NCBI RefSeq assembly: GCF_002902965.1
Contig: NZ_CP026108.1
Coordinates: 434,001-498,000 of the forward strand
Source of the DNA: Paraburkholderia hospita
GTDB lineage: Bacteria > Pseudomonadota > Gammaproteobacteria > Burkholderiales > Burkholderiaceae
DNA: 64,000 nt
Reading direction: 5' to 3'
Below are positions 1,821 through 19,507 of the stretch, piece after piece. The position numbers and the translations under genes are program-made. Numbering within the stretch: the stretch's first letter is position 1; the number at the start of each line of letters is the position of its first letter. The notes under the pieces were generated by a model, which did no database searches, was not told the DNA's origin, and saw nothing but the letters and a program-made list of their open reading frames with translations.

Positions 1821-2143
1821 CACGCTCTATGGCCGTCGCGAATTCCAGTACTCATCGTATTGCGATACGCAGATTAACCGCCCGCACTAAAGTTCCCCCC
1901 AAACATGCCGATAACATGCCTGTATGACTTTCTGCGAGGCCGCGTGCTGAACGGCGTGCGGTCCGGGCATATCGCTTGAATATTCTTGTGTCAGGCAGGT
2001 CGCCCGATGCGGATTCATCCGCCGCAAGCCGTTATTCCTTTTTTTTGCTTTACCGCGCATGACATGACGCGTCGTGCTTCGCCTTTCGATGGCATGGATC
2101 GTGGAGCATGTGTGCGTCGAGCGCGGCTTTCAACGAAACAAGA
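1821..2143. other. Intergenic, no gene seen
   Basis: This stretch upstream of the NERD/helicase gene shows no frame with protein-like composition. A T-rich segment at 2036-2050 is the only notable feature and may belong to the promoter of the next gene. Confidence 0.4.
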
Positions 2144-3766
2144 ATGGCTAGAGTCCACCCTCCGTTGACAGAGATTCGCGTGGCGTCCGCGGGCGAGCAT
2201 GCCGAGTTCGACATTCTCAGAAAGTTAGCTGATGGCCTGCCGGAGAGCTACGAGCTGTTTCATAGCGTCGACTGGACGCGCGCCGAGCCGCATCGCGACA
2301 GTCACGGCGAGTTCGACATCGTTGTCGTCAACAGCGCTGGCGACGTCGCGTTGCTTGAGGTGAAAGCGGGCGAAGTCGACATGACTGGCGACGGTCTGTT
2401 CAAGCAATATGGCTTGCAGCGAAAGGACGTCGGTCGGCAGGCGAGCTGGCAGTTCAGGTCGCTTCTGCAGCGTTTGAAAGCTGAGGGCATTGACGTGCGC
2501 CTGCTGCATTGCCTCGTTTTGCCACACTATCGAATTGGCGATCACGGGACGGTGAATTACCCGCGTGAACGTATCGCGGACGCGGAAGATTGCCGCGATA
2601 TGACAGGATTCATCCAACGCCGGCTAGGCGCTGGGCGGCCCGATCCGAATAAAGAACGGGTGTGCGCCTTCATGCTCGACCGCATTCGCGTCCAGCCCGA
2701 CATCTCGGCGCTGAGGGGCACGCTCCAGCGACGTGTCGACGAGATTTCCGGCGGGCTGGCGCGTTGGGTGCCTCGCATCAATGTGGTGAGCGGCGTCATC
2801 CACGTGCGGGCAACGGCCGGATCAGGCAAGACCCAACTCGCGCTCGCGTTGCTTCGACAGTCGCGTGTGGCGCTGAAAGCGGCTTCGTATGTATGCTTCA
2901 ACCGCCCTTTGGCCGATCAGATGCGCGTGTTCGCGCCGTCAGACGTCGAGGTCAGCAGTTTCCATCAGCTGTGCTGGGAGGCTGCTGGACGACCGCGAGT
3001 TTCACAAGACTTCGAGGCACTTGCACAGCGCTATCTTGAGGAACAGCAGCGCGCCGTGCCTCATCTCGATGTGCTGGTGATCGACGAACTGCAGGACATG
3101 CAGGCGGCGTGGGTGCAGGCGCTGATCTCGCGCGTGCAGGAAAACGGCCGCATTTATCTGCTCGAGGATCCCGAGCAATGCGTCTACACGGATCGAGTGC
3201 AGATCGAAATCAGCGACGCCGTGATGATGACGGCCCGGGAGAATTACCGGAGCCCGCGCAAGATCGTGGAAACAATCAACCTGCTCCGCTTGACCGAAGA
3301 GCCGATCGCGCCCTGTGCGCCGATCGCCGGCGTGCCGCCGGAATTCACGGTCTACAGCCCCGCTGCTCGGAATGTTGCGCAAGCGACTTCTGACGCAGTT
3401 CGCCGATGCATCCAGTCCGGTTATGCACCGGACGACATCGTCGTGTTGTGCTGGCGCGGGCGGGGCCATTCTGCGCTACTGGCTGACGACATGCTGGCGG
3501 AATGGAAGCTGAGGAAGTTCACGGGCGAGTATGACGAGGCGGGACAGCCGATCTACTCTGACGGCGAGCTGATGATCGAGACGGTTCGACGCTTCAAGGG
3601 GCAATCAGCACCCGCAATCGTGCTCACTGAAGTCGACTTTGATCGCTCGGATGCGTTGTGGCCGCAACTGTTATTCGTTGGGTTGACCCGGGCGCGGATG
3701 CATGTAGAAGTCGTCATTTCGGACACTGCGGTGCGGGCGCTGGAGTCGCGCCTGACGGCCATGTGA
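2144..3766 (+). CDS. NERD-domain nuclease fused to UvrD/PcrA-like helicase
   Basis: The protein is about 540 aa. The N-terminal ~130 residues look like a NERD (nuclease-related) domain: an E-rich start, then GEFDIVVV and ALLEVKAGEV, the acidic-x-K pattern of the restriction-endonuclease fold. A superfamily I helicase follows, with Walker A ATAGSGKT at residues 223-230, Walker B VLVIDEL with D314-E315, and a C-terminal VGLTRARM segment of the UvrD type. I chose the ATG at 2144 because the conserved region begins soon after it. An in-frame ATG at 2108 is also possible and neither has a strong ribosome-binding site. Such proteins are frequent in defence islands and the neighbours fit that setting, but the substrate is not known from sequence. 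Confidence 0.8.
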   Translation: MARVHPPLTEIRVASAGEHAEFDILRKLADGLPESYELFHSVDWTRAEPHRDSHGEFDIVVVNSAGDVALLEVKAGEVDMTGDGLFKQYGLQRKDVGRQASWQFRSLLQRLKAEGIDVRLLHCLVLPHYRIGDHGTVNYPRERIADAEDCRDMTGFIQRRLGAGRPDPNKERVCAFMLDRIRVQPDISALRGTLQRRVDEISGGLARWVPRINVVSGVIHVRATAGSGKTQLALALLRQSRVALKAASYVCFNRPLADQMRVFAPSDVEVSSFHQLCWEAAGRPRVSQDFEALAQRYLEEQQRAVPHLDVLVIDELQDMQAAWVQALISRVQENGRIYLLEDPEQCVYTDRVQIEISDAVMMTARENYRSPRKIVETINLLRLTEEPIAPCAPIAGVPPEFTVYSPAARNVAQATSDAVRRCIQSGYAPDDIVVLCWRGRGHSALLADDMLAEWKLRKFTGEYDEAGQPIYSDGELMIETVRRFKGQSAPAIVLTEVDFDRSDALWPQLLFVGLTRARMHVEVVISDTAVRALESRLTAM

Positions 3767-4309: not shown

Positions 4310-5353
4310 ATGTCGATTCATCACGAAGCAAATCAGATGCGCGAAGAACTTGAGCGCGATCGCAATACGACAGTTTCCGTTGCGTTGTTTGGTCAACCCG
4401 GCGCGGGCAAATCGTCGCTGATCAACAAGATCGTCGGCAAGCGAGTGGCAGAAGTCGGGGTGGAAACGGACAAGACTGTCGATGCCACGCCTTATGAGGT
4501 AAATGGCCTGCGCTTTGTGGATTTGCCGGGTTACGGCACATCGAGATTTCCGAAGGCCAGCTACTTCAGCGATTTCCAGCTCCAGAACTTCGATCTCTTT
4601 CTCTGCGTGACCAGCGGTAAGCTCCATCAGGCCGACACGGAACTGTTTCGCGAACTGCACAAGCAAGGTAAGGTGTGTATCTACGTGGTAAACAAGGTAG
4701 ATGAATTGTGGGAGGAAGGCGTCGGGATAGAGGAACTTAAGGCGCGCAAGGAAAGGGACATCAGCAAGAACCTTGAGGTCCCAGTAAAAACCATTTTCAC
4801 GAGCTGTCGCACTTCCGAAGGTCTCGATCAATTAAACACTGAGATCAAGAACAACCTCGACGGCGCCAAACGTGAGCGATGGCTGCGCGATGCCAAGGCC
4901 TATAGTGCCAGGTTCCTTGAGGAGAAGAAGGAGGCATGCGAAAAATACGTCGTGACGGCAGCGGCAGCTTCGGCGGTCAACGCGATAAATCCGATTCCTG
5001 GCGCCGACATCGCAGTCGATCTTTCGATTCTCGTCGGGCTATTTGCGGGAATTCGCCAAGCCTACGGACTCGATGAAGCTGCGCTAGACAAGCTGAAGCA
5101 ATCGGCTATTCCCGTAGTAGGCAGGCTTGCCAGCAACGTGGTCTCCTATGCCGCACGTGAAGGGCTGATGCAGTTGCTGAAGCGCTGCATCGGCAGAGAG
5201 GCGCTCAAACAGTTCTCGAAGTACGTGCCATTTGTGGGGCAGGGCGTAGCGGCGACACTCGGCTATGTCATCACGAGCAATGTGGGTAGCATGTATCTTG
5301 ACGACTGTCATGAACTTGCAAAGCAGATCATCGAAAACAAGCTTGTGATTTGA
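4310..5353 (+). CDS. IRG/Era-like P-loop GTPase with DUF697-type C-terminus
   Basis: The product is 347 aa. Its GTPase motifs are complete: G1 GQPGAGKSS at 28-36, G3 DLPGYG at 71-76 and G4 NKVD at 128-131. From about residue 205 the protein turns hydrophobic and alanine/glycine-rich, with NAINPIPGADIAVDLSILVG and a second apolar stretch near 305-330. This is the pattern of DUF697/YcjF-like membrane-associating tails. The family includes interferon-inducible-GTPase-like bacterial proteins thought to act at membranes. The next gene starts 3 bases after the stop, so the two are co-transcribed and probably translationally coupled. Nucleotide-dependent membrane binding is an inference. Confidence 0.85.
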   Translation: MSIHHEANQMREELERDRNTTVSVALFGQPGAGKSSLINKIVGKRVAEVGVETDKTVDATPYEVNGLRFVDLPGYGTSRFPKASYFSDFQLQNFDLFLCVTSGKLHQADTELFRELHKQGKVCIYVVNKVDELWEEGVGIEELKARKERDISKNLEVPVKTIFTSCRTSEGLDQLNTEIKNNLDGAKRERWLRDAKAYSARFLEEKKEACEKYVVTAAAASAVNAINPIPGADIAVDLSILVGLFAGIRQAYGLDEAALDKLKQSAIPVVGRLASNVVSYAAREGLMQLLKRCIGREALKQFSKYVPFVGQGVAATLGYVITSNVGSMYLDDCHELAKQIIENKLVI

Positions 5354-5356
5354 CCC

Positions 5357-5986
5357 ATGCTGAAGGCTATCCTGCCGGCGGCGATCGCTAGCCTGTTAGA
5401 ACGGCGCAGACCCGTAGTGTCTCCGGATTCCATTCTCAGATTCAACATTAAGCGTCTCGGTAAGGAACTGGCTCGCGTGCCCGGTCGGAAGGTCGCCATC
5501 TTCGGTCAGCCGGGCGCGGGCAAATCCTCGCTTCTGAAAAACATGACCGATGCGCAAGTGAGGCCCCTGCCGTGCATCGGCTCTCAAACCGACGCGACCG
5601 ACTGGTCCACGGATCCGGCGTGCGAACTGCTCAGCTTTCACGAGCGCGAAGTGTACGTCGACGCACCGGGTCACGATACGCTGAACCACCCGGTCAATGC
5701 CTTCGCGCCGAACTTCCCGTTCGCAGCATTCGATGCGTTCGTATTCGTCATTAGCGGGAAGCTGCATGATGCCGACTGCCTGATGTTTCAGCGTGCAATG
5801 GAGTCGCGCAAATCGATGTGCATTGCCCGATCGTTCGCGGAATCACTGACAGTGGAAGAGGCTGTCGCGGTCGAGCGCGATTTGCGGCGCAAGCTGGCCG
5901 CTCCCGCGAAATTGAAGTTCGTGTTTTTCAGCAACCGTACGCGGGAGGGTGTGAAGCATGTGCAAAGGTTCGCGAAGGGAGAGTGA
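5357..5986 (+). CDS. Second small P-loop GTPase, tail separated by an in-frame stop
   Basis: The product is 209 aa. It shares the G1 sequence GQPGAGKSS (50-58) with its upstream neighbour and has G3 DAPGHD at 102-107. It also has a matching VISGKLHDAD segment (VTSGKLHQAD in the first GTPase). A canonical G4 NKxD is absent: the equivalent position reads SMCIARS, so guanine specificity is doubtful. The protein ends at a TGA (5984-5986). The same frame stays open for 46 further codons and encodes a basic stretch plus a transmembrane-like helix, described separately. With that tail the protein would resemble the membrane-anchored layout of its neighbour. It may therefore be a nonsense-mutated copy. 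The two GTPases probably act as a pair; no partner can be named from sequence. Confidence 0.75.
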   Translation: MLKAILPAAIASLLERRRPVVSPDSILRFNIKRLGKELARVPGRKVAIFGQPGAGKSSLLKNMTDAQVRPLPCIGSQTDATDWSTDPACELLSFHEREVYVDAPGHDTLNHPVNAFAPNFPFAAFDAFVFVISGKLHDADCLMFQRAMESRKSMCIARSFAESLTVEEAVAVERDLRRKLAAPAKLKFVFFSNRTREGVKHVQRFAKGE

Positions 5987-6127
5987 AAGAGCCGCAAGCC
6001 GGCCCTCAGGATACGGCTCATCTGGCTTGTTACATTGGTCACTGTCGTGGCCGGAGGCGCCACGCGCATCACGCACATCGAGGCTCGAGACGAACCATTA
6101 GCAGTTAACTCACATGGTTGCCCGTGA
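5987..6127 (+). other. In-frame transmembrane-like extension after the GTPase stop
   Basis: Read in the frame of the preceding gene, the codons after TGA 5984-5986 give KSRKPALR, then an apolar run IRLIWLVTLVTVVAGGA (6011-6061), then a polar tail ending at TGA 6125-6127. A positive cluster followed by a 17-residue hydrophobic helix is what a C-terminal membrane anchor looks like. It has no start codon with a ribosome-binding site of its own. Either the stop is a recent nonsense mutation, it is read through, or the frame is coincidence. Confidence 0.4.
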
Positions 6128-6167
6128 AGTGGGCTTACCATTTCTCGCTTAAAAGCTAACGACAGAT

Positions 6168-8618
6168 ATGCACGAAAAGAACATTGAAACGCTTCGGGAA
6201 GAGGCTACGCGATTGCTCCAGTACGGTAGCGAGCTGCTGGAGAGAATGACACTGAACCCAGGCATCGTGGCGGAGCCGAAGCGCGACGAGCCGCAGATCT
6301 TTGATCTCGAATCGACGCGCATTCGCATCGGCGAGATGCATAGCGAGCAGTGCAAGGTTGAACAGCTCGAAATGGTGCTTGCCGTTGTTGGCACCATGAA
6401 GGCCGGCAAATCAACGACGATCAATGCGATCGTGGGCGCGGAAGTGCTGCCGAACCGCAATCGCCCGATGACCGCGCTGCCGACGCTGATCCGTCACACG
6501 CCTGGCAAGATCGTACCGGTCCTGAAGCTTGACCGCACAGAGCCAATCAATGCGTTGATGCGCACGCTTGCGGAAGCGGCTGCGCGTCCCGAGCATAGCG
6601 AAATCATTCGAGGACTGCAGGACGACAAGGACATGGTGGCCCTGCTGCAGCTCGTGAAGAGCGGCGGCGAGTTCCAGCAGTGCTACGAAGGCGCAGACGA
6701 GATCTTTCGTTTCCTCAAAGGCCTGAACGATCTGGTTCGTCTTGCTGGCGAAATGGGCGTCGACTTCCCGTTCGACAGCTACAGCCACATCGAAGCGATT
6801 CCCGTGATCGAGGTGGAATTCGGCCACTTGCGCGGCAGGTCGGACTTTCAGGGGCGTCTCGCGCTGCTCGATACCCCGGGACCGAACGAGGCGGGTCAAC
6901 CCCATCTTCGCAAGATGCTACGCGAGCAGTTGCGTAACGCATCGGCGATTCTCGCGGTGCTCGACTTCACGCAGCTCAAGTCTGACGCCGACGCTGAACT
7001 GCGCAAGGAACTGGTGGATATCGGTGGCGCGCGCACCTATGCGCTCGTGAACAAGTTCGACCAGCGAGACCGCAACGGCGACGATGCGGACGACGTGCGT
7101 GCGCTCGTCGCCGGCAAGCTGCTGCCAGAGGTGGTACGCCCGGATGACGTTTTCCCGGTTTCGTCGAAGCGCGGCTATCTGGCGAACCGGGCGCGGACCG
7201 TGCTGGCCGCCCAGGGGCACCTGCCTGACCCGAAGACCGAGGGCTGGGTCGAAGACTTCGCCACTGAGGCCATGGGCAGCAGTTGGGACGAAGACGACCT
7301 GGACGATTCCGAAAAGGTCGAGAGCGCCGCCGGGAAGCTCTGGAAGAAGTCGAATTTCCAGACGTTACTCACGGACGTGATCGAATACGCGCACGCACGT
7401 GCGGCGGCGCTTGCGATCGACTCGGCTGCGCAGAAGCTCATCAAGCTCACTGGCGACGCGTCGAACTTTCTCGACATTCGCAAAACCGGCCTTGCGCAGG
7501 ACGCACAGAAGCTGCACGCGCAGATCAACGCCATTGTCGAGGACATCCGTAAGATTGGCGAGCTGGAACAGACGGCTCAGAAGGCGACGGAGAATGCATT
7601 GGCCGATATGGCAGGCACGGTCGACGAGCGATTCTCGAGGAGCCAGAAGGACGTCGAGGCCGTTGTGGATCTGTACTTCCAGCAAGGCAAGATGGCCGAA
7701 CTGGAAGCGGCGATCGAGCAGCAGAAGCCGCGATCGCGCAAGGTCATCAAGAAGTCATTGCGCTCTGGCGAGTCGGCGCCGTGGTTGAGCGGCATCCTCG
7801 CATCGTTCGCGAAGGCGGTCGGGGAGGCGTTCAATCCCGGCGGAGATACCGACTTCAATCCGAACATGGAGACGATTCAGTTCGATGACGCGAGCAAGGC
7901 GACGGAACTGATGGATACCATCCGCTCGCGGGTGGAAGAAGTCATGGCGCATGCGGAAAGCGACATGCAGCACGATCTGATGCAACTGATCGAGGACTTC
8001 AGGAAGCGCTTTAGCGACCACGTCGAGGCGCCAGCTCACCGGATTATCGGCGACCTGAACCAACGCCTCGGCGAAGACGGTTTCACGGTGAAGCTGGTCA
8101 TCCCGATGATCGCGCTCGACACCATCGAGTTTTCGAGTGGTGAGATGCTGGCCGATGCGATTCAGCACAAGACGCGCACGGTCACGCGCCAGCGCCGCCA
8201 ATCGGGTACATGGGGCAAGGTCTGCAGCTGGTTCAATACCAACGATTGGGGCTGGGAAGACTATAGCGTTTCGGTCGAATACTCGGAGATCCATCTTGGC
8301 ACGGTGAAGGAGATGGTCGCCAGACGAATCGGCGAGAGCTTCGATGGTCTCGCAGAACGCATCCACGCATCGGTCAAGGAGCCAGTCAACCTGGCGACGG
8401 GCGAGTTCTTCGCCGTGTTCAAGGGCGAAGTCCAGAAGATTCGCGGCACGCTGATGCAAAGCGAGCGCGACCAGCAGCGTGACAAGGCCGAGAAGGACCG
8501 GTTGATCGAGGAGCTGGTTGTCTTGATGCAGAATGTGCCGGCCGCGCGCGAGGACAGCGAGGAGCTGCGTCGCGAGACGCAGCACTGGCTGTCCGATGAG
8601 GTGGAAGAGCAGGCATGA
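6168..8618 (+). CDS. Dynamin-like GTPase of the RdcA/CrfC (YjdA) family
   Basis: The product is 816 aa, a little longer than the ~740 aa of E. coli YjdA (CrfC/RdcA). G1 GTMKAGKST lies at 75-83, G3 DTPGPNE from 235 and G4 NKFD from 295, followed by a long helical region (about 400-620) typical of the dynamin stalk and a C-terminal helical end. E. coli YjdA was described as a sliding-clamp-binding factor (CrfC) and, with YjcZ, as a regulator of a diguanylate cyclase (RdcA/RdcB). The next gene is the YjcZ homologue and overlaps by an ATGA, so that pairing is kept here. The distinctive context is the two extra GTPases upstream and the phospholipase downstream. Family assignment is firm; function in this organism is inferred. 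Confidence 0.85.
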   Translation: MHEKNIETLREEATRLLQYGSELLERMTLNPGIVAEPKRDEPQIFDLESTRIRIGEMHSEQCKVEQLEMVLAVVGTMKAGKSTTINAIVGAEVLPNRNRPMTALPTLIRHTPGKIVPVLKLDRTEPINALMRTLAEAAARPEHSEIIRGLQDDKDMVALLQLVKSGGEFQQCYEGADEIFRFLKGLNDLVRLAGEMGVDFPFDSYSHIEAIPVIEVEFGHLRGRSDFQGRLALLDTPGPNEAGQPHLRKMLREQLRNASAILAVLDFTQLKSDADAELRKELVDIGGARTYALVNKFDQRDRNGDDADDVRALVAGKLLPEVVRPDDVFPVSSKRGYLANRARTVLAAQGHLPDPKTEGWVEDFATEAMGSSWDEDDLDDSEKVESAAGKLWKKSNFQTLLTDVIEYAHARAAALAIDSAAQKLIKLTGDASNFLDIRKTGLAQDAQKLHAQINAIVEDIRKIGELEQTAQKATENALADMAGTVDERFSRSQKDVEAVVDLYFQQGKMAELEAAIEQQKPRSRKVIKKSLRSGESAPWLSGILASFAKAVGEAFNPGGDTDFNPNMETIQFDDASKATELMDTIRSRVEEVMAHAESDMQHDLMQLIEDFRKRFSDHVEAPAHRIIGDLNQRLGEDGFTVKLVIPMIALDTIEFSSGEMLADAIQHKTRTVTRQRRQSGTWGKVCSWFNTNDWGWEDYSVSVEYSEIHLGTVKEMVARRIGESFDGLAERIHASVKEPVNLATGEFFAVFKGEVQKIRGTLMQSERDQQRDKAEKDRLIEELVVLMQNVPAAREDSEELRRETQHWLSDEVEEQA

Positions 8619-9517
8619 GCAGAGCGCCCATCGATATCGAGTCGGCGGTCTGCAAGACGCTGACTTGCCTTCCTGAGAAGCTGGTGGTCGACTTCGCCAA
8701 TTGCGTCGCCGAGTCCACAGGACGGCTGGCCGGGCAGACTGGTCGCAACGGTTTCTTCACGCGCTGCTGGGAGGGCTTCACGGGCCGCAGCGCCGAGCGC
8801 CAATGGCGCCTGAACCAGAATTTCGCGGAAGGTCTCGACGTCACGCTGCAATGGTTGACGGAGCTGACGGAATCCGTCGCGCACAGCAATCTCGCGATTG
8901 GTCGCGTGCACGACACGGTCAACCGCATGATGCTCGAGCTCGCGGATGTGGCGGATTGCTCGGCGAATGTCAGGGATGAACTGCGGATGAGCACGTCGCG
9001 TCTGGAGAAGCGACTCGATGCGCTCGCCAGCGAACTCGCACGCGTGGACTTCATTCAGCGCGTGCAGTTGAATCTGGATCAGGTGTTCAACCGCTGGCGC
9101 GCGGGTCGCTTTGCAGGTCTCTCACCGGCCGGCCGGGCCTATGCGGCGCTCGAATGTCTGTGGTGGGGCACATTTGGCGACTACTGCCGCTATCAGAACG
9201 GGCCGCAACGCCATGCGTTTGTCGAAGACGCGATGAACCGCGTGACCGCTCAGCTGGCTGAAGATGCCCGATGCGGGACGCACGACCGGGTCGATTCGTC
9301 ATGGTGGCTCACGTCGGGCAGCGCGCCTGAGCAACTCGAAGGTGCGGCGGCACTCTCCTACCTCGGGGACACGCTGGACCCGGCGCGCTGTCCGGTCGCG
9401 TTCGCCATCGCTCATACGCCTGACCGCCTGCCGCTCGAAATGCCGTTGCGCGCGACCCCAAGGCGCATCGGCGATGCGTTGGTACGCGAACTCTTTGGAG
9501 AGCCTGCACGTGGATAA
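8615..9517 (+). CDS. RdcB/YjcZ-like partner protein
   Basis: The product is 300 aa, matching the ~290 aa of E. coli YjcZ (diguanylate cyclase regulator RdcB). The region WLTELTESVAHSNLAIGRV, followed by a heptad-like helical segment (residues 95-150) and GRAYAALECLWWGTFGDYCR, is characteristic of the family. The gene begins inside the stop of the dynamin-like gene (ATGA overlap) and its own end overlaps the phospholipase start by 8 bases, so the three proteins are made together. The predicted role is as a helical adaptor to the GTPase. It has no catalytic motif. Confidence 0.8.
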   Translation: MSRAPIDIESAVCKTLTCLPEKLVVDFANCVAESTGRLAGQTGRNGFFTRCWEGFTGRSAERQWRLNQNFAEGLDVTLQWLTELTESVAHSNLAIGRVHDTVNRMMLELADVADCSANVRDELRMSTSRLEKRLDALASELARVDFIQRVQLNLDQVFNRWRAGRFAGLSPAGRAYAALECLWWGTFGDYCRYQNGPQRHAFVEDAMNRVTAQLAEDARCGTHDRVDSSWWLTSGSAPEQLEGAAALSYLGDTLDPARCPVAFAIAHTPDRLPLEMPLRATPRRIGDALVRELFGEPARG

Positions 9518-10589
9518 ACTCAAGGTAGGTCTGGTGCTCTCGGGGGGCGGTGCCAAGGGCGCTTATCAGGTTGGCGTCATGCGCGCGCTGGCGGAACTCG
9601 GCGCGCAGGTCGACATGGTCGCGGGCGCGAGTATCGGCGCGCTCAATGGTGCGATCGTGGCGTCTGCCGTTACCCCGCAGAAGGCGCATGCGCATCTGGC
9701 CCAGCTATGGGACCGGCTTGCGCAGGCTTCGCCGGTGGAGTTTCAGGCGTTCGGCTATCTGACGATGCTGTCCTCGGCGGGTGTCGCGCTGGCGCCTACG
9801 CACGCGCTCGACCGCGTGCTCAAGGCGGCGCGGCTCGCCGCCGCAGCGCTCGACGTCGATCTGGCAAAGTCGCTCGACAGGCTGGAAAACAGCCTCGCCA
9901 GCGATGCACCTCTCAAGGCGCTGATGGACGAGTATCTCGATCCGGCGGCGCTGAAGGCCGGCTTGCCACTATATGTCTCGCTGTTCCGGTCGCAGTCCCC
10001 CTTCGACGATCTGCTTCGCATCGCTGCCGCCGAAGCCGGAGTTATGGACACACCCGAGTCCGCCTACGTGCACGTGCAAAGCTTGCCGGCAACCGAGCAA
10101 AAGGCAGCGTTGCTTGCGTCCGCCGCGATTCCGGTGATCTACGCGGCGAAAACGATCGACGGCAAGCGCTATTCCGATGGTGGCATCGGAGGTTGGCGCA
10201 CGATGCAGGGCAATACGCCTGCGGGTGCGCTACTCGATGCGGGCTGCAACATGCTGATCGTCGTGCATCTGTCCGACGACTCGCCGTGGTCGCGCCGCGA
10301 TTTCCCGCAGGCGACCGTGCTGGAAATCCGCCCGCAGCGCGCAATCGCGCGCGACCCTAGCTTGCTCGACCATCGCGATCTGCTCGGCTTCGACTCAACG
10401 CGGATTCCCTCGTGGATCGCGCAGGGCTACGAGGACACGCTTGCGTGCGCTCAGCGCATCATGCGGCCCGATGCGGCCAGGCGTGCGCTGCGCGAGTCGG
10501 AAAAAATATTGGAAGCGAAGCAGGCCCAAAGTATTTCGAATGAAGCGCGCCTCGCTGATGCAATGGCACGCTTGCGTCGCGACTTGTGA
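9510..10589 (+). CDS. Patatin-like phospholipase
   Basis: I take the GTG at 9510 as start. GGAGAG lies about 7 bases upstream and the conserved patatin beginning follows at once, giving 359 aa. The oxyanion loop is SGGGAKG (11-17), the nucleophile elbow GASIG has Ser41, and the catalytic aspartate is in DGG at 223-225. Both members of the Ser-Asp dyad are present, so an active lipid acyl hydrolase is likely. Its start overlaps the RdcB-like gene by 8 bases. A membrane-degrading enzyme directly coupled to dynamin-type GTPases suggests a membrane-targeted effector, as patatins are in CBASS (CapV). No cyclase is present, so activation would have to come from the GTPases. That is inference. Confidence 0.85.
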   Translation: MDKLKVGLVLSGGGAKGAYQVGVMRALAELGAQVDMVAGASIGALNGAIVASAVTPQKAHAHLAQLWDRLAQASPVEFQAFGYLTMLSSAGVALAPTHALDRVLKAARLAAAALDVDLAKSLDRLENSLASDAPLKALMDEYLDPAALKAGLPLYVSLFRSQSPFDDLLRIAAAEAGVMDTPESAYVHVQSLPATEQKAALLASAAIPVIYAAKTIDGKRYSDGGIGGWRTMQGNTPAGALLDAGCNMLIVVHLSDDSPWSRRDFPQATVLEIRPQRAIARDPSLLDHRDLLGFDSTRIPSWIAQGYEDTLACAQRIMRPDAARRALRESEKILEAKQAQSISNEARLADAMARLRRDL

Positions 10590-10641: not shown

Positions 10642-11601
10642 ATGTGCGCCGCAGGGGTGGCCTGCATGGTGGCGTACCGGATTGAACACGCGAACCTTAT
10701 GAACCAGCAGCAATTTCTGAATGACATCGAGGTCAACGCATTTGTCGAATGGCTGGCTGGTTTTGCCGATCGACTGTTGGTGGATCTGAATATCAACAGA
10801 TCGGCACGCGTGCCGACTGCCGTTGTCAGGCACGTGCAGGGTTTCGATAGCCTGACCGATACGTATGTATGGCGCGCGAACTGGGAGGACGACGACGGCA
10901 CCCAGGTGGACTCGTTGTGCTGGGATAGTACGGCGCAGAGCCTTGCGCGTCTCGGCAAGAAATTGCGTACGGCGCTGGAAAGTCAATCTGCCGACGCCGT
11001 TATGACAGCATGTGAGGCTATTTTCCGCTGGGGCGGCGAGCGCAATTCCGGTCGAGGCGCGCGCCCCTTCCTTAACGTAAAGCATGCCAACGGGCAACTG
11101 GTCGACTACCTCGTCGCTGCACGTGAAGCGTTTAGCCTGAAGCGAGGAAGACTTGATCAGCTTCACGTGATCGAGCTGGTGAACTCCATGTTGACCAAAA
11201 TCTACGCATTGGCATCGGGCGACGGGCTGCCCATTTATGACTCACGCGTCGCCGCTGCAATCGCATCGCTAGTCGAGGTATATCGTATCGAGACGCACCG
11301 CGATTGGCAGCAGGTGCCAGGCAAGCTCTTGTTCCCGACGATGGCCGCGGAATCTCGCCGGATGTTAATTGGTCTGCACCCGGACGCACTCATCTCTACC
11401 GGCACAGTGATGCGCTACCAGGATGCCGATATGTCAGCACGCTGGGCATCGGCAAAGCTACGGCTTGGCTGGATCATTGAAGACGTGCTCAGACGAGCGC
11501 CGAACTTGCTGAGTTCCCAGCCGCATTCACGGCACCACGCCTTCGAAGCATCCCTTTTTATGATCGGTTACGACGTGCGATGCCTCACCCCCAATCTATA
11601 G
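10642..11601 (+). CDS. Hypothetical protein of unknown family
   Basis: The product is about 319, 311 or 300 aa depending on the start. ATG 10642 follows GAGGCGGGAT, ATG 10666 follows GGGGTGG and ATG 10699 is the last candidate. I give the first because of its spacing. The protein is soluble, mainly helical, with W-rich patches (VWRANWEDDDG, IFRWGGERNSGRG) and an RYQDADMSARW segment near the end. I recognise no catalytic motif. The gene starts 52 bases after the phospholipase and is followed by a 127-base gap containing a palindrome, so it may be the last gene of the GTPase cluster or a free-standing gene of the island. Confidence 0.65.
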   Translation: MCAAGVACMVAYRIEHANLMNQQQFLNDIEVNAFVEWLAGFADRLLVDLNINRSARVPTAVVRHVQGFDSLTDTYVWRANWEDDDGTQVDSLCWDSTAQSLARLGKKLRTALESQSADAVMTACEAIFRWGGERNSGRGARPFLNVKHANGQLVDYLVAAREAFSLKRGRLDQLHVIELVNSMLTKIYALASGDGLPIYDSRVAAAIASLVEVYRIETHRDWQQVPGKLLFPTMAAESRRMLIGLHPDALISTGTVMRYQDADMSARWASAKLRLGWIIEDVLRRAPNLLSSQPHSRHHAFEASLFMIGYDVRCLTPNL

Positions 11602-11655
11602 CGAATAGCACGTGCGACACTGCGAACGATGTTGTGGTTAGCGCGAGCGGCGTTA

Positions 11656-11671
11656 TTGGGACAAATTTTGT
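11656..11671. promoter_or_regulatory. Palindrome GGGACA-AATTT-TGTCC
   Basis: GGACAAA and TTTGTCC form a perfect 7-base dyad around one central T at 11657-11671. It matches the sites at 495-678 and 4226-4241 in sequence and in 5-base spacing between GACA and TGTC. It lies 58 bases upstream of the ATG at 11729, the first gene of the PLD/helicase operon. Confidence 0.5.
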
Positions 11672-11728
11672 CCGTTTGTCATTTCAGAATATGTACTCTC
11701 TGAAGCGATTCGACTTCCAGGAATGTGC

Positions 11729-12997
11729 ATGACCGAACTCGATACCCGTACACCGGACATCTATCTTCCGTACTTCACGGCTGTGGATCCTGCGCTGAGC
11801 AGATCGTCGGGAGGTCGCGATCCCCTTGGCCTGTTGCCGGTATGGAGCGCGTTCGGACGCCGGCTCGTGCCTAATCTGGCGTCGCCTGTCGCACAGGTCA
11901 CCGGCATCAAGGCCGTGGTCCTGATTCAATGGCTTGCGGATCAGGACAGCATGCAAAGGCTGTTGGAACGCGAGGGCGCGCGTCGACGTTTCTTCCGGCT
12001 CATGGAAGGGCTGCTCGAGTACTGGTTATACCGGCAAGACGGTGCAGCCCACTGCTTCGGCAGCAACGCGCTGGCCGCCGCAGAAGAGAATTTCTACGTG
12101 ACGGCGGCGTCGGCCAAGACCGTTGCGAACGGGCTCTATCAGTACTACCGCGGCAGTTGCCGGCGCGCCCGGCTCGTCGATGATACCTGGACCGTTCAGG
12201 CCGACGTTGCTCGTCAATTGTGCAAGTGCTGGACGCAAAAGGCGACGGAGGAGTTGATCGAAGCGCTTGCCGGGCCTCTCAAATCCTCAGCCACGCGGCT
12301 CTTCCCCGGAAAACATCTCAATGGTGCGCTCAACAATGCGCTGACGCGTGTGTTCGATCCGAACACGCTTCGCGACACGCTGCAGAACTGTTTGTTCGGC
12401 GACACGGACCAGCAATCGCTGGCTCGTGATTTTCTCGCGCTACGGCAAGCGGACGAGACGGAAAAACTGACATTCGAGGGCCGCGTCAAAAGACTCGTGT
12501 CACCGTCGCTCGATCACGAGATTGACTGTGTCCTTCGATGCGAGCCGTTTCTCCTGGTCATGCAGGACGTGTTCGACTATATGCGTGGCTCACCTGGCAA
12601 GAGGCTGGAACTCATAGCAGGCGAATTGAGCCGATATCAGCCGGAGATGGGCAAGCGCGCCACCCGCTTCCTGCCACTTGGGGCCGAACAGGATTCCGCG
12701 CGGATGAAGCACATGCAGGTACTCGCGCGCCTTCTTGCCAACACTGAATCTGCAGCGGGCGCCGCGAACCATGCCGTACCGGTGGCGTTCTTGCGTGAGC
12801 TGGCCGCTTATCACGCGCGATGCATGAAAGAACGCGGGCGTGACCCGATGGTGGTGATCGAGGGCGATGTCGTATTGGTCACCGTCGCCGGCGATCGCAA
12901 TGTGCAGGATGCGACGGCGCGGCTCGAAAAAGGACACCCGTGGATGAATGACTATTACATGAACACCGCGTCGAACCTCTACGGGCAGGTATTTTGA
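11729..12997 (+). CDS. Hypothetical protein, first gene of the PLD/helicase operon
   Basis: The product is 422 aa from ATG 11729, which has AGGA 7 bases upstream; ATG 11723 is too close to that site. I do not recognise the family. The N-terminal part (LGLLPVWSAFGRRLVPNLAS through LLEYWLYRQDG) is helical and resembles the small adaptor-like proteins that accompany helicase genes in defence loci, but no motif can be named. The middle holds ALNNALTRVFDPNTLRDTL and the end MVVIEGDVVLVTVAG is beta-rich. The gene overlaps the next by four bases (TTGA), so it is made with the PLD protein. Confidence 0.7.
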   Translation: MTELDTRTPDIYLPYFTAVDPALSRSSGGRDPLGLLPVWSAFGRRLVPNLASPVAQVTGIKAVVLIQWLADQDSMQRLLEREGARRRFFRLMEGLLEYWLYRQDGAAHCFGSNALAAAEENFYVTAASAKTVANGLYQYYRGSCRRARLVDDTWTVQADVARQLCKCWTQKATEELIEALAGPLKSSATRLFPGKHLNGALNNALTRVFDPNTLRDTLQNCLFGDTDQQSLARDFLALRQADETEKLTFEGRVKRLVSPSLDHEIDCVLRCEPFLLVMQDVFDYMRGSPGKRLELIAGELSRYQPEMGKRATRFLPLGAEQDSARMKHMQVLARLLANTESAAGAANHAVPVAFLRELAAYHARCMKERGRDPMVVIEGDVVLVTVAGDRNVQDATARLEKGHPWMNDYYMNTASNLYGQVF

Positions 12998-15018
12998 GTA
13001 CCACCATGAAAATATCGAAACCCGGCATCGACCGGGCAATGCGCGCGACGCTAGAGGATATCCGGGACCGTTTCTCAGCCGATCATCCGCGCTATGTTCT
13101 GTTCACGACGTTCAATTTCGCGTCGCAGTTTTTCGAATCGAATGTCTTGCCGCTGCTGGTCGGAGACACGGTCGACGATCTGAAAGGCGCCTCGGAAACA
13201 CGCTACGCGATCAACGCTGACCTCGAGACGCTCAGATGCCTCGTGGTGTGTGATCGCTCGACCTGTCCCGAACCAAAAGGCGACATGCGCTACGGTTTGC
13301 TGCCCGTCGGCCTTGCCGATGGCCGCTTTCATCCAAAGCTGATGTTGATGTTCGGTACGCTGAAGGACACGCAACAACCGGGCTTGTGGATGTCGGTCGG
13401 TAGCGGCAATCTGACGTTGTCCGGGTGGGGCGTCAATCGCGAGGTCGTCGGGATGACGCCAGTCACGTCTCGTCACGCGTCGGAACTGAATCTCCTGTTC
13501 GAGTGGCTTCGCGGCCAGGCAGCACTTCAGTTCGGATCGACATCAGAGGACAAGGAAGAGGGCGGCGTCCGCGAGATTCTGCGCGTATTGCACGAAGCCG
13601 TGCTTCGCGACGACAACCTTGTGCCGCATACGCGCGCTACACCGTCATTACATGTGTCGTTGCCGCAGAAGAGCGGGAGCGAATCGATGCTCGACGCGTT
13701 GAAGGGCGACGTAGCCTGGCATGCGGCGACGGTTGTTTCGCCTTATTGGAGCGCCGTGGATCAACTGGTCGAGGCGCTTGGCGTGAAGACATGCCGCTTC
13801 GTGCCATCGCTGACAGCCGATGGGAAGTACCGCTTCCCTGTGGATACCGTCAACCTGACGGACCGAACGTTCGCGGCGTTCGAGAAAGATAGCGAACGTT
13901 ATACGCATGCAAAGGCGCTGCTGCTTGAGAACGGACAGGAGCGGGTACTGTGCATCGGCTCGGCGAATTTCACTCAGGCGGCGATGCTTTCTGCCGGGAA
14001 TCAGACGCTGACGAATATCGAGGCGATGCTGCGCTACGAACTCGGCGCTGCGCCCGACCCCTGGAAAGCGCAACTGCGGTTGCTACCCGATCCTTCCTTT
14101 GCGTCGGTTGATGAGGATGATGAGGAGGACGGCGCGCCGCCGCTTCCGCCTTTCGATGCGACGGTACTATATGACTGGACGGCGGGTGAATTTCGCGCGC
14201 ATTTGACCGTCACGGGTAGCGAGCCGGTCCGTGATCTCGTTCTTTCGATCGGTGCGTACAGTTGGACGATCGCTACTGCGGCCGCCGGCGAGACGTGCGT
14301 CATGCAACCCTGGGTTTACAAAGGCGCACAACCGGTGCGATCGTTCTCGGTCCACTACCGCCTCGCTCAAGATGAACCGGCGATGTTTCGCGGATTGATC
14401 ACCCAGCTCAACGCCGGCGACGATCAACTCGGCTATCTGCCGCGTCCGCGCCTCAACCGGGTTCTCGAACTGCTGCGAAGCCTCAATCCACTTGCGACGA
14501 CCGGCAAGACCCGCGAGCGCGTTCTTTCCGAGCTTGCAGATGGCACGGGCGATGGCGAGGAAGAGTCCGCCGATCCGACCTTCGACTTTTTCGGTCTTTT
14601 CCAGGCTACCTGGAAGCTGCAAGAGTACTACCAGACGAAAGCAGCGGCTGAGCGCGACCCTTACGACAAGCTCGCACCTTATGGTGCAGTGACGCTTTAT
14701 CGCGCGATCACCGGGCAGGCGGCGATCACGCATGAAGAGAAGATCGGCCGGTATATCCAGCTGTCGGAAATGCGCGATGTTGTCGCGCGTCTGGACAAGA
14801 CGACGAAGTTCAAATCGACTGAAACATTCCGCAGCGACATCGAGACCGAAATCAGCGTGCTTGGCGCCGAGATGACGCAGTTGCTCGGCGAGTCGCAATC
14901 GTTTCGATCGATGTTCGGCGAGGCGACCCCCGAACGCATCGAAGCATTCCTGAGCTGGTTCCATGAGGAGCTACAGCGGGAAGTGAGTCACCAGGCGGGA
15001 GGCAATCATGGTCGATAA
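12994..15018 (+). CDS. Phospholipase-D-fold protein, probable nuclease
   Basis: The product is 674 aa from TTG 12994; ATG 13006 is an alternative start. Two degenerate HKD motifs are visible: H113-x-K115 in FHPKLMLMFG with N139 in GSGNLTLSGW, and H305-x-K307 in YTHAKALLL with N325 in GSANFTQ. These are the paired H-x-K...N signatures of the PLD superfamily, so the active site can form within one chain. An acidic linker (about 370-385) separates this part from a beta-rich middle and a helical C-terminus. The helicase gene starts 11 bases before its stop. PLD-fold proteins next to SNF2-type helicases occur in defence loci such as DISARM (DrmC) and Mokosh, so DNA or RNA cleavage is more likely than lipid hydrolysis. 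Confidence 0.8.
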   Translation: MSTTMKISKPGIDRAMRATLEDIRDRFSADHPRYVLFTTFNFASQFFESNVLPLLVGDTVDDLKGASETRYAINADLETLRCLVVCDRSTCPEPKGDMRYGLLPVGLADGRFHPKLMLMFGTLKDTQQPGLWMSVGSGNLTLSGWGVNREVVGMTPVTSRHASELNLLFEWLRGQAALQFGSTSEDKEEGGVREILRVLHEAVLRDDNLVPHTRATPSLHVSLPQKSGSESMLDALKGDVAWHAATVVSPYWSAVDQLVEALGVKTCRFVPSLTADGKYRFPVDTVNLTDRTFAAFEKDSERYTHAKALLLENGQERVLCIGSANFTQAAMLSAGNQTLTNIEAMLRYELGAAPDPWKAQLRLLPDPSFASVDEDDEEDGAPPLPPFDATVLYDWTAGEFRAHLTVTGSEPVRDLVLSIGAYSWTIATAAAGETCVMQPWVYKGAQPVRSFSVHYRLAQDEPAMFRGLITQLNAGDDQLGYLPRPRLNRVLELLRSLNPLATTGKTRERVLSELADGTGDGEEESADPTFDFFGLFQATWKLQEYYQTKAAAERDPYDKLAPYGAVTLYRAITGQAAITHEEKIGRYIQLSEMRDVVARLDKTTKFKSTETFRSDIETEISVLGAEMTQLLGESQSFRSMFGEATPERIEAFLSWFHEELQREVSHQAGGNHGR

Positions 15019-18000
15019 GACGGACATCATTCAAGACGGGCTGACCGCTCAGGCCGTTCGTTCCTACATCGACTTCGACGGACATGACGCCACGCGCTCG
15101 ACGCCAAGCGCGCAAGCCGTGCTTCAGAGCAAAGGGGTAGCCGCACTCTGGCATTTGCTGGAAACAAAATCCTTCGCGTATCTGGCTGATGAAGTCGGCA
15201 TGGGCAAGACCCGGCAAGCAATGGGTGTCATCGCGACGCAATTCCTGCGCAATCCCGACTCACGCGTGGCGATTGTTTGTTCGAGCGCGACGCTGCAGCG
15301 TCAGTGGCAAAGCGAGTGGTCGGAATTTTTGCGAACCTGTTACCGGTTGCTCGATGACCGGTTGCTCGACACAGTCAATGCCCGTCAAGTCGAGGATCTG
15401 CATCTTCACCATAGCCTGCGCGATTTCGTCCGTTCGCTGAGTCTTGGCGATGCACGCATTCATTTGCTGCGCTATTCGTCGTTTAGTCGCCCGCTGACTT
15501 TCAAGGGCAAAGACGCGGCCTCGATACTGGACGAATACCGGTCGCTGGTCGGCGTGTCGTCACTGGCCGATCTCGAAGACGACGAACGCGCGCTGTGCAC
15601 GACGCGCGGAACGTTGTCAGAGACGCAGAAGGGCGAGCTCACGCACGCATTGAGCGCGGCATACTGCAAGCGTATCGCGGCGCTGATGACGAATGGTTCG
15701 AGCCTTGACGCGCACGATGAGCCCATTCCCAATCACCCGCTTGATCTGGTCATTTTCGACGAAGCACAGTATCTGCGTCATACGACCAATTTCCAGAATC
15801 GGCATATCGCCGGCATTTTTCGCCGGAATGTCAAACGCTGGTTGTTCATGAGTGCGACTCCGCTGCACTCGAGAGCGAGTGACATTCGCAGTCTCGATAC
15901 CTATCTTTGCCGCCAACCTGCGCACAAGATTGGCGAAAATCGCATTCTGGAGATTCCGCGTGATTGCGGAGACTGCCAGTATCAGACATCGTGCAGCCGC
16001 ATGACCTGGCAATTGCGCGCGCAGCCCGAAGGCGTGAGAGATGTGGTGCCGCTGCTGCCGGACTTCATGGTCCGCCGGACACGCACTTATGCGGACAGGC
16101 ACAACAGGCACTACGGAAAAATCCAGTACCGCAAGTACGAGCGCGTTCGCTATGCGGGGTCGAATGATCCGTTCCTCTCGCTCACGATGGCGCTCGTGCA
16201 GAAACGCCTCGTCGGTGTGCTCGCGGGAAAGGGAAACAGATTCCGTCTTGGCGAGTGCGCTTCGTTTGAATCGTTGTCGACTTCTGTCGGGCGTCTGCTG
16301 GGGCGCAAAAAGGCGCACGTTGCCGAACCGGCCGTCGAGCGTGAATACGAGGCTGTGCGCGACGCGAAGCAAGGCACGAAGGAGGAGCCGGGCGTATCGG
16401 TGGATCGCACCGCCATCGACGAACTCAATCGTAGCTTCGTCGACGCGATGAATGTGCCGGATGTGCGCCTTGGGACCACGCAGCACACGACCTCGCTGCC
16501 GCACGCGAAACTGAATCGTGCCGCTGATGCGTTGTTTGCACACAGCCTCGCGAACGGCAGTTATCAGAAGACACTCGTTTTCGTGCGCCGTATCGACACC
16601 GTCGAAGAAATCCGCGATCTGCTGAACGTGAAGTTCCAGCGACAGCTCGATCAGCGAATCGAGACATGGCGATGCATCCTGATGCAACCTGCCTTGGGTG
16701 CAAACGGCAAAACGCCATGGGTCAAGGATGCGTTCTGGGAAACGGGCGCAGCGGGCGCGATGGATGACGCCGACGAAGAGGTGATCGGAGCGGAGAGAAA
16801 GGCCGACGAAGAGGCGGAGCGTGAAAGCATGAAGGAGTCCGGCAGCGACGAACCTTCGGGCGCCGAATCGCACCGCACGGCCTATCGCGACGCGCTCGAT
16901 CTTCCCTATTTCGAGGCGTTGAAACGGGCGGCAAAAGGCGGGCGTCACGGGATGCTGGTGTCGTTCGGCTCGCGTTTGCTCAGTACGAAGGACGCGTCGC
17001 GCAATCCGCTGCGAGGGTTCCTTCTGAAACGGCCAGAACCTTCTGAAGAACTCGTCAGCGAGGCGAACGAGAAGCACTGGAAGAACAATGCCGCACGTTG
17101 GCTGCGCTTTCTACAGATCGTTCTGGGTCGCGAGCGGGTCGACGAACTGTCCGCTGATCCGGCTCGCGGCTGGCTGTTCAACGGGGCCGCGGATCATCGG
17201 GACGATGCCTGGAAGCTGGCGGCATTGCAGCTCTGCGTGCTGCAATCGATCAGGCAGACCGATTTCCTCGTCGATCTGTTCATTCTCCATACGCACTTGA
17301 ACCGCACGCCGGATGGCGCGACCGAGTTGCCCGAGAAGCTGATGTGGCTGCTCGAATGCGATCGGCAAAGCACGGAAGGTCACGGGCTATCCGCCTACAT
17401 CGATAACTGGAAAGAAATGTTTCGTCGCTGGATCGAGCATTTCGATCTGATCGTCGACAAATGCCTGCGTAGCGGCGCAGCGGTCAGCTGGGAGGAGATT
17501 TACCGCGAGCGCGTGCATCTTGCGTTTCGCCAGATGTCGCCCGTGATTGGGCGTTCGAGCCGGCTGCGCAATCAGAACGCGGTGACGCAGTTCAAGTTTC
17601 CGACGCATCCGAACGTGCTGATCTGTACGGACGTGCTGAAAGAGGGCGTCGACATGCATCTCTTCTGCGACAACGTCGTGCACTATGGCGTCGCGTGGAC
17701 CTCGGGCGATCTGGAACAGCGCATCGGGCGGATCGACCGGTTGGGCAGTCTGATTGGACGACGGATCGAGCGCTTTGAACGCATCGAAGGCGAATCGCTA
17801 ACCGAACTGCCGCGTCTGGGTGTGGCTTTTCCGTATCTAGACGGGACGCTCGATCACTTCCAGGTCGAGCGCGTGATTCGCGCCAAGATTGTCAGCGATC
17901 TGCGCATGGACCTTGGCAAACGGAAGGATGAGATTGGCGAACTGGATCTCTCGACGTTCGACGATGACGAGTCGATTCAGGTTGCGGCGAAGGGCAATTC

Positions 18001-19507
18001 ACCGCACACCGACGGGGTGTTCTTTCCTGTCTCAGCGCTGGCACTGGTTGCGGAAAATGCAGCGCCTGCCGCGATCACATTGCCCGACGGCATTCGCCGC
18101 AAGGGCAGCGACGAACGGGTGCCTGCGACGCAAACGGTCGATAGTGCGTCCGAAGCGGCGGCATATCTGCCGGCGTTCAACTGTCTCCGCGTGACGCGCA
18201 TCGTGCCGACAGGACCGGGCGCGACCCGTCTGACGCGACGCATGCTGGACATGGCGGTGGGTGTACTCCGTCTATCCCGGTCCGCTCCGAAAGATGCGTC
18301 CATTGTCTGCACGGAGGAGATTCTTGTGCCGGGCGCCTGCTCAACCGGGCGCTCACTGAGCGTCGCGCTGGCTGAGGGCGATCAGACGTCGGTCGGGCAT
18401 GTCGACCTGGAGGGCTTTGCGTTCGATCAACGAACCAATACTGTCAGCCGCGAGATGGACATGTCATACGCGTTTGCCTCACGGGAGCACCTGAGCGGCA
18501 AGGTGATTCTGGAGTCGATCGGCGACGACTTCCTGCTGCTGCGCACGGCGGTCTGCTCGTTGGCCGCGGCACTCGCGACGGCGGATGGACGCAACTTGCA
18601 GCGCTGGCTCGCGGCGAAGAACAGTGGGCGACGTTGGGGCTATCTGATGGCGGATGCCGACACGGTGTGGTTCGCGGTCGTAGTCAGTGCCGCATCGGGC
18701 GATGACGCGCCCCTTCTGACGCGGCTCTCGCAGGAGATGGGGCGAATCGCGCTCTACTACCGGTCCACGGTTAAGCATCCCGGCGAACATGCAGTACGCG
18801 AATATCGTGCCCGCACTGCATTTCCGGCGCTTGCTTCCGTTAGTCAAGCGTACGGCGGCGATGCGGATCTGCGCGTTTCACGCCTTCTAAAAACCCTTGC
18901 AGAAGGAAACATATCAAGCATGAAAAACGTTGATCTTCAGGCATGCGGCAACTTGCTTGCTGGTGTTCAGGGATGGTTTGGTGACGTTTTCGATGAAGTA
19001 TTGGCTGCACTTTACGAAGGAGAGGAGGACAGTTCGGAGCGTCCCTTGCAGAAGATGCCGCTGGCCCTTCTGGATGGCGGGATCTTGCATCTGCGCGCGG
19101 CAGGCAAGGAACATTTTCGTATTCAGGCGTACTTGGATCTGAATGGTGCAATTTGCAGTGAGCACGTCATATCCGGCCCGAAAGTGGTCTGGGAGTTGGT
19201 AGCAAGCACGACCACGCGAGGCAAGAAGCCGGAGTTGCAACTCTCGACGTTCGAGCAGCTTCCGCACGCATTGCCGCAGGTGTGGGAAGGCGAGGCTGCA
19301 AATGGAGCGGCCGCGTTTGCGTCTACCGACGAGAAGTACCGCTTCGTGGTGCTCTATCACCATCCAGCAGCGTGGGAGACTGCACGTGCTGATCTGCTCG
19401 AAGCATGGAAAGCTGTGAAGAAGAAGATGCAGGAGCTGTCAACCTTTCAGCGTAAAGGTTGTCGGGACACGCTGATTCAGGCAGTCGAACCGGAGACGGT
19501 ACCATAA
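15008..19507 (+). CDS. Large SNF2/superfamily II helicase
   Basis: The product is 1499 aa from ATG 15008, which has GGGAGG just upstream. Helicase motifs: Walker A DEVGMGKTRQ at 61-70, DEAQ at 251-254, SAT at 282-284. Far downstream are CTDVLKEGVDMHLF and motif VI QRIGRIDRLG from 904. The gap between the two RecA-like lobes is unusually long and includes an acidic, charged insert near residues 585-620. Three cysteines at 320, 323 and 329 (CGDCQYQTSC) may bind metal. The ~500 residues after motif VI are of unknown fold. It shares an operon with the PLD-fold protein. An ATP-driven translocase that hands DNA to the nuclease is the simplest reading. It is not a match in gene order to DISARM, since no methylase or DrmA/DrmB gene is present. 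Confidence 0.85.
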   Translation: MVDKTDIIQDGLTAQAVRSYIDFDGHDATRSTPSAQAVLQSKGVAALWHLLETKSFAYLADEVGMGKTRQAMGVIATQFLRNPDSRVAIVCSSATLQRQWQSEWSEFLRTCYRLLDDRLLDTVNARQVEDLHLHHSLRDFVRSLSLGDARIHLLRYSSFSRPLTFKGKDAASILDEYRSLVGVSSLADLEDDERALCTTRGTLSETQKGELTHALSAAYCKRIAALMTNGSSLDAHDEPIPNHPLDLVIFDEAQYLRHTTNFQNRHIAGIFRRNVKRWLFMSATPLHSRASDIRSLDTYLCRQPAHKIGENRILEIPRDCGDCQYQTSCSRMTWQLRAQPEGVRDVVPLLPDFMVRRTRTYADRHNRHYGKIQYRKYERVRYAGSNDPFLSLTMALVQKRLVGVLAGKGNRFRLGECASFESLSTSVGRLLGRKKAHVAEPAVEREYEAVRDAKQGTKEEPGVSVDRTAIDELNRSFVDAMNVPDVRLGTTQHTTSLPHAKLNRAADALFAHSLANGSYQKTLVFVRRIDTVEEIRDLLNVKFQRQLDQRIETWRCILMQPALGANGKTPWVKDAFWETGAAGAMDDADEEVIGAERKADEEAERESMKESGSDEPSGAESHRTAYRDALDLPYFEALKRAAKGGRHGMLVSFGSRLLSTKDASRNPLRGFLLKRPEPSEELVSEANEKHWKNNAARWLRFLQIVLGRERVDELSADPARGWLFNGAADHRDDAWKLAALQLCVLQSIRQTDFLVDLFILHTHLNRTPDGATELPEKLMWLLECDRQSTEGHGLSAYIDNWKEMFRRWIEHFDLIVDKCLRSGAAVSWEEIYRERVHLAFRQMSPVIGRSSRLRNQNAVTQFKFPTHPNVLICTDVLKEGVDMHLFCDNVVHYGVAWTSGDLEQRIGRIDRLGSLIGRRIERFERIEGESLTELPRLGVAFPYLDGTLDHFQVERVIRAKIVSDLRMDLGKRKDEIGELDLSTFDDDESIQVAAKGNSPHTDGVFFPVSALALVAENAAPAAITLPDGIRRKGSDERVPATQTVDSASEAAAYLPAFNCLRVTRIVPTGPGATRLTRRMLDMAVGVLRLSRSAPKDASIVCTEEILVPGACSTGRSLSVALAEGDQTSVGHVDLEGFAFDQRTNTVSREMDMSYAFASREHLSGKVILESIGDDFLLLRTAVCSLAAALATADGRNLQRWLAAKNSGRRWGYLMADADTVWFAVVVSAASGDDAPLLTRLSQEMGRIALYYRSTVKHPGEHAVREYRARTAFPALASVSQAYGGDADLRVSRLLKTLAEGNISSMKNVDLQACGNLLAGVQGWFGDVFDEVLAALYEGEEDSSERPLQKMPLALLDGGILHLRAAGKEHFRIQAYLDLNGAICSEHVISGPKVVWELVASTTTRGKKPELQLSTFEQLPHALPQVWEGEAANGAAAFASTDEKYRFVVLYHHPAAWETARADLLEAWKAVKKKMQELSTFQRKGCRDTLIQAVEPETVP

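Follow-up and report, generated by a model that had tools for sequence, protein, structure and literature searches.

A mobile rdcA-rdcB-patatin cassette, proposed as a GTP-controlled phospholipase, and its probable relation to the Escherichia coli RdcA/RdcB pair

Introduction

The window analysed here, the whole of a 64,000-nucleotide stretch of Paraburkholderia hospita DNA (assembly GCF_002902965.1, contig NZ_CP026108.1, positions 434,001 to 498,000), contains five genes that encode, in order, two small GTPases, a dynamin-family GTPase resembling RdcA of Escherichia coli, an RdcB (YjcZ)-like partner and a patatin-like phospholipase. The locus raises the question of which of these genes belong together, and what a lipase does beside a pair of proteins that is known from E. 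coli as an activator of the diguanylate cyclase DgcE. An earlier note on this DNA took the five genes as one immune system. We conclude that this system is to be replaced by a mobile three-gene unit, rdcA-rdcB-patatin, in which the patatin is the true conserved partner and of which the E. coli RdcA/RdcB pair is a probable patatin-less descendant. If this is correct, the origin of an orphan E. coli signalling pair is explained, RdcB would be the likely adaptor linking the GTPase to an output enzyme, and sensing of a metabolite, GTP, would trigger a membrane-cutting effector; as the residues characterised by mutation in E. coli RdcA are conserved here, clean predictions follow. In the literature searched, which was mainly open-access, we found no study of the triplet, its E. 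coli island version included. One report (PMC13182975), in the portion that bears on these genes, lists patatin-like phospholipases and rdcB among E. coli island genes without studying them.

The conserved unit

The five open reading frames (ORFs) are all open, in the order and with the spacing that the earlier note gave (Table 1): 3 bases lie between GTPases 1 and 2, rdcA and rdcB share a 4-base ATGA overlap, and rdcB and the patatin gene overlap by 8 bases. That note omitted the 181 bases that separate GTPase 2 from rdcA, because of which the cluster is better described as a pair plus a triplet. A simple scan of this gap gave no promoter- or terminator-like site, and scans for promoters, terminators and RNA families yielded nothing useful.

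The conserved unit is the triplet and not the five genes, because a piece of DNA from another genome of the same family (L012, genome G641) shares nothing with the window but the minimal unit of Table 1, the match starting 6 bases before the rdcA start and stopping 5 bases before the end of the patatin gene. Three further loci (L011, L022 and L023, from genomes G684, G1200 and G1299) have rdcA-rdcB-patatin with no GTPase match nearby, and none of these four 17-20 kb pieces matched either the window GTPases or the GTPase of the E. coli islands. Among the loci examined, the five-gene order is confined to this genome and to P. diazotrophica (L002), in which window positions 2044-19498 are present at 94% DNA identity, and we reject it as the conserved unit; GTPases 1 and 2 and the helicase genes are optional neighbours of the triplet.

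Eleven patatin-bearing loci were used for trees (the window, L002, L003, L004, L005, L011, L012, L022, L023, L028 and L029). Gene order is identical in all of them, a result that is partly by choice, since loci were located through RdcB, patatin or RdcA matches. The lowest identities across the eleven are 24% for RdcA, 18% for RdcB and 29% for the patatin, and the genes overlap or lie at most 10 bases apart. The rdcA/rdcB overlap is 4 bases in eight loci (the window, L002, L003, L004, L005, L011, L012 and L022), 1 base in L023 and 23 bases in L029, with a 5-base gap in L028. Between rdcB and the patatin gene, nine loci have an overlap of 1-8 bases, and L011 and L029 have gaps of 10 and 8 bases, respectively; the L011 gap vanishes if an in-frame upstream start is used, and for the window, L002 and L012 we chose the patatin start ourselves. 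Pairwise divergences of RdcA, RdcB and patatin over these loci agree closely (Mantel r 0.974-0.980; in none of the three comparisons did any of 2000 permutations reach the observed value): the three proteins diverged together.

Distribution of the cassette

The triplet is a mobile cassette, scattered over islands and plasmids. Besides the loci above it is found on islands in E. coli and on enterobacterial plasmids; on two Nostoc plasmids, genes for a dynamin, a YjcZ-like protein and a patatin follow one another in unchanged order. At E ≤ 0.001 the RdcB family model PF13990 matched 1 of 369 genomes of the window's class, 4 of 398 of its family (3 above cut-off), 8 of 398 of its phylum (6 above cut-off) and 7 of 256 of the order of genome G1040 (6 above cut-off); these samples overlap, G000 being counted in class, family and phylum. 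Among 295 genomes from the family of G1040 (f192, which we take to be Enterobacteriaceae), two match the window patatin at E ≤ 1e-30, and in both the match adjoins rdcAB. The cluster is accessory, as the family count indicates, and not fixed core genome.

The linkage of the patatin to rdcAB, on which the earlier note depended, held in relatives. Among plasmid records, 34 match the patatin at E ≤ 1e-20, 29 of them covering at least 80% of its length, and 31 of the 34 also hold RdcB, 30 by tblastn (among 40 listed of 41 RdcB plasmid records) and one (Nostoc MS1) by an annotated YjcZ gene alongside. The other three, which match 43% of the patatin, are absent from the listed RdcB records. Ten further listed records have an RdcB at 25-31% identity and no patatin match, and by sequence these RdcBs look core-type. 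In a Klebsiella plasmid (L005:4471-11743), IS1 elements and a codB/codA segment lie between a piece that matches the start of the dynamin gene and the remainder.

E. coli contains both kinds of locus. The core pair, RdcA (YjdA/CrfC) and RdcB (YjcZ), has the same families, order, 4-base overlap and GTPase residues as the window pair and differs in having no patatin alongside and in belonging to the core genome: at least 80% of the K-12 pair is matched in 5354 of the 5426 complete E. coli genomes. The island version, annotated in public records as dynamin family protein, RdcB family protein and patatin-like phospholipase, has the same trio in the same order with 4-base overlaps, at about 41, 40 and 44% identity to the window proteins, respectively; it differs in having one upstream GTPase where the window has two, and in lying on a different island. 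It often stands beside a GTPase gene, yeeS/yeeT and cbtA/cbeA. Of the 5426 genomes, 2426 match at least 80% of the L003 triplet DNA, and 3384 of 3385 matched places are chromosomal. The description in the earlier note of the E. coli pair as one without a lipase fits the core copy only; 2426 genomes carry the full triplet, and most of these have the core pair too, given how nearly universal the latter is.

Origin of the E. coli core pair

A tree of RdcA plus RdcB with 19 taxa unites the eight pairs that lack a patatin, among them those of K-12 (RdcA/RdcB) and Citrobacter (CrfC/RdcB), in a single clade (support 100/100) that is sister to the patatin-bearing L023 (100/100), with Nostoc outside. 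The grouping is unchanged without Nostoc (again 100/100) and recurs in an 18-taxon tree from which K-12 was left out (99.2/100). The fetched DNA of all eight core-type loci (L006, L024-L026, L043-L045 and L050) gave no patatin match; the E. coli collection contains nothing close to one of these loci, L043. Relative to the window, core-type RdcA is about 35% and RdcB about 25-32% identical. Because the core pair groups with a patatin-bearing pair, E. coli RdcA/RdcB most likely descends from the triplet and lost its lipase, and with Nostoc as outgroup a single loss of the patatin is the simplest history. K-12 RdcA (L050:12136-14364), which sits on a long branch, is 49.6% identical to cassette RdcA over residues 37-495, the G-domain half, and 20.8% over residues 579-788, as if it had changed fast after the loss of the patatin.

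The three proteins

The RdcA-like protein matches Dynamin_N (65.9 bits, Pfam) and scores 616 bits against the CrfC equivalog model NF007368, below the cut-off of 1146, and is therefore a relative rather than the CrfC orthologue. Its motifs G1-G4 are intact, and all 18 sequences compared (18 of 18) share residues K81, S82, T102, D235, P237, G238, N295, K296 and D298; the alignment places K81 and T102 opposite K82 and T103 of K-12 RdcA. The RdcB-like protein, encoded directly downstream, matches PF13990 (YjcZ) with 167.1 bits against a cut-off of 27. A profile search of solved structures returned mostly coiled-coil segments from unrelated proteins, and RdcB probably carries a long coiled-coil-like stretch.

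The patatin (Pfam Patatin, 104.8 bits) is likely a membrane-lipid-cutting enzyme, a predicted phospholipase: Ser41 (GASIG), Asp223 (DGG) and the glycine loop G12-G14 are invariant in 10 of 10 sequences, at identities down to 29%. The coupling of a complete Ser-Asp patatin to a dynamin-like pair was borne out, with the dyad intact and the gene overlapping rdcB. The ratio of nonsynonymous to synonymous divergence (dN/dS) is 0.095-0.25 over rdcA, rdcB and the patatin gene (three pairs per gene) and 0.095-0.144 in the three patatin pairs. A second patatin-like gene, unlinked to the cassette, is present at window positions 44269-45177 and shares 26% identity with the cassette patatin across 252 columns; patatins were also seen on nine viral contigs.

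Two immune systems resemble the cassette in part. CapV-type patatins act as immune effectors, and the cyclic oligonucleotide-based antiphage signalling system (CBASS) with such an effector shares with the cassette a patatin-like phospholipase. Membership in CBASS is rejected, as the CBASS lipase model NF041079 gave the window patatin 26.3 bits against a cut-off of 200 and no cyclase (CD-NTase) family matched among the ten ORFs scanned (2108-19507). Eleos/LeoABC is alike in having dynamin-like GTPases on islands; it is not known to contain a patatin, and since the models for LeoA and LeoBC gave partial matches only, membership is rejected here as well. LeoA, B and C are themselves described as bacterial dynamins (PMC4159319).

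A proposed GTP gauge for a phospholipase

In published work on the E. coli core pair (PMC6510439), RdcA is a binding partner of RdcB and docks at the MASE1 domain of DgcE; the K82A mutant activates and T103D does not, and the same source proposes that GTP inhibits RdcA, such that falling GTP leads to activation of this membrane enzyme. Extending this directly to the cassette, in which the equivalent residues are conserved, would make the patatin the ancestral output enzyme. RdcA and RdcB would form a soluble complex that GTP holds away from its target; when GTP drops, or is hydrolysed by RdcA, the nucleotide-free complex would dock at the inner membrane and recruit or activate the co-encoded patatin, which would cut membrane phospholipids, with arrest or death of the stressed or phage-infected cell as the likely outcome. 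One Enterobacteriaceae lineage would have dropped the patatin and turned the same GTP gauge on DgcE. We give about an even chance to the reading in which the cassette gauges GTP and thereby turns on the phospholipase that it encodes, with phage defence or stress as a plausible setting; the parts that we infer are the control of the patatin, the substrate of this enzyme and a function in defence. A broader statement, that a dynamin-like GTP gauge mobile across phyla directly switches a phospholipase, a fall in GTP such as that on phage takeover or starvation freeing the lipase on the cell's own membrane, and E. coli RdcA/RdcB being a domesticated, lipase-less copy rewired to a cyclase, is offered tentatively, as a possibility that we would not yet favour.

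Several results weigh against this reading. On the defence side, the patatins match PADLOC CBASS effector models weakly, PADLOC 2023 had no match for RdcB of the window or of L003, and the tested flanking genes of L012 (two), L022 (two), L023 (one) and L028 (one) had no PADLOC match. Of control proteins from 20-63 kb of the window, 2 of 10 did match, and with so few flanks tested an enrichment of defence neighbours is not established; a defence role of the cassette is plausible. RdcA had no match among 50,697 phage records and none in viral contigs scanned with two patterns, and a phage-borne origin is rejected. On the structural side, an AlphaFold model of RdcB built from two near-identical sequences was useless (predicted local distance difference test score, pLDDT, 38). 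As for history, the attachment of Nostoc, and hence the root, is weak (23.5/52 with 18 taxa; 24.2/54 and 78.2/83 at the two adjacent nodes with 19), few taxa were sampled, and the root could formally lie on the core branch.

The alternative that fares best treats the cassette as a mobile regulator of cyclic di-GMP and biofilm, in which RdcA/RdcB, like the core pair, would have diguanylate cyclases as targets and the patatin would be a minor, membrane-tuning enzyme. The RdcA and RdcB families are those of the DgcE activator, MASE1-domain proteins occur in three of the four cassette genomes searched (G000, G684 and G1612), and the L003 cassette adjoins the autotransporter gene cah. The fourth genome, G641, has the triplet and no MASE1 match, however, so that a partner of the DgcE type seems not to be required; moreover, the neighbour that recurs is the patatin and no cyclase, and the patatin-less pairs make up one clade. 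We consider this alternative unlikely.

The view of the earlier note, in which immunity-related-GTPase-like proteins serve as sensors for a dynamin-controlled lipase in one membrane-acting immune system of five genes, we regard as quite improbable. The genes are contiguous on one strand, and E. coli islands too have a GTPase-family gene upstream. GTPase 1 belongs by score to the interferon-inducible GTPase family (IIGP, PF05049, 66.9 bits against a Pfam cut-off of 24), with G1 GQPGAGKS, G3 DLPG and G4 NKVD; the solved structures closest to it are vertebrate immunity-related GTPases, and it is nearly unchanged relative to P. diazotrophica (dN/dS 0.067). GTPase 2, which is 36% identical to GTPase 1 over 165 columns, matches MMR_HSR1 with 23 bits, barely above the Pfam cut-off of 21.9, and has G1 and a D-x-P-G motif but no N/T-K-x-D (G4) motif. 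Against a five-gene system stand this missing motif, the 181-base gap and the four loci that have no GTPase match beside the triplet. In addition, in L003 an autotransporter gene sits between the GTPase gene and rdcA, and the upstream GTPase of E. coli ECSC054 has an internal shortening (L031:11349-11783) while rdcA, rdcB and the patatin gene are annotated whole.

Very doubtful, finally, is a selfish or stabilising toxin-antitoxin-like module, kept because loss of a restraining RdcA/RdcB pair would free a patatin toxin: tight coupling, occurrence on plasmids and islands, and a core lineage that dropped the patatin and retained the pair, as such a unit would allow, agree with it, but an 816-residue GTPase would be an unusual antitoxin and the unit has no small antitoxin-type gene.

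Gene layout and neighbouring genes

Table 1. Features of the locus, in window positions, with the basis of each assignment.
Feature	Position	Strand	Basis
NERD + UvrD-type helicase (context only)	2108..3766	+	Pfam; comparison with L011
GTPase 1, interferon-inducible-GTPase-like (IIGP/MMR_HSR1), 347 residues	4310..5353	+	ORF open; Pfam
GTPase 2, short paralogue of GTPase 1, 209 residues	5357..5986	+	ORF open; Pfam
Gap of 181 bases between GTPase pair and triplet	5987..6167	+	ORF coordinates; site scan
Minimal shared unit	6162..10584	+	Sole part of the window matching the 19.9-kb piece L012 (83% DNA identity)
rdcA-like dynamin-family GTPase, 816 residues	6168..8618	+	Dynamin_N; NF007368; residue alignment
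rdcB/yjcZ-like partner, 300 residues	8615..9517	+	PF13990
Patatin-like phospholipase, 359 residues, GTG start (our choice; the frame stays open further upstream)	9510..10589	+	Pfam Patatin; residue alignment; dN/dS
308-residue ORF, then PDC-M27A/B/C-type ORFs (context only)	10675..19507	+	Pfam; PADLOC

Outside the cassette, four of the five window ORFs considered (2108-3766 and 10441-19507) have PADLOC matches (E ≤ 1e-5), three of them to PDC-M27 components. The latter three (11723-19507) match PDC-M27A, PDC-M27B and PDC-M27C in that order, the second being a PLD-like protein and the third a 1499-residue SNF2-type helicase; there is no curated cut-off for PDC-M27, and the trio directly after the cassette is a candidate defence system. 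At L011, two of five tested flanking genes have PADLOC matches (a NERD-helicase and an IetA-type AAA gene), and both of the two tested at L029 have matches of Mokosh type.

The NERD-helicase of the window has a homologue of 37% identity directly after the patatin gene in L011. Relative to P. diazotrophica, its synonymous divergence (dS) is 0.59, far above the 0.05-0.16 of the eight genes that follow, from GTPase 1 to the PLD gene, which makes its membership in the cassette doubtful; recent shared history with P. diazotrophica seems to start after it. Homology between the window ORF at 10675-11601 and a 415-residue gene of L011 is not claimed, as a single comparison gave no more than 34 matching residues (E 0.007). 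Farther downstream of the cluster lie a Tn5-type transposase gene (24649-25986) and a SIR2-like ORF of 297 residues (29935-30828) that matches the first part only of Dsr1 defence models.

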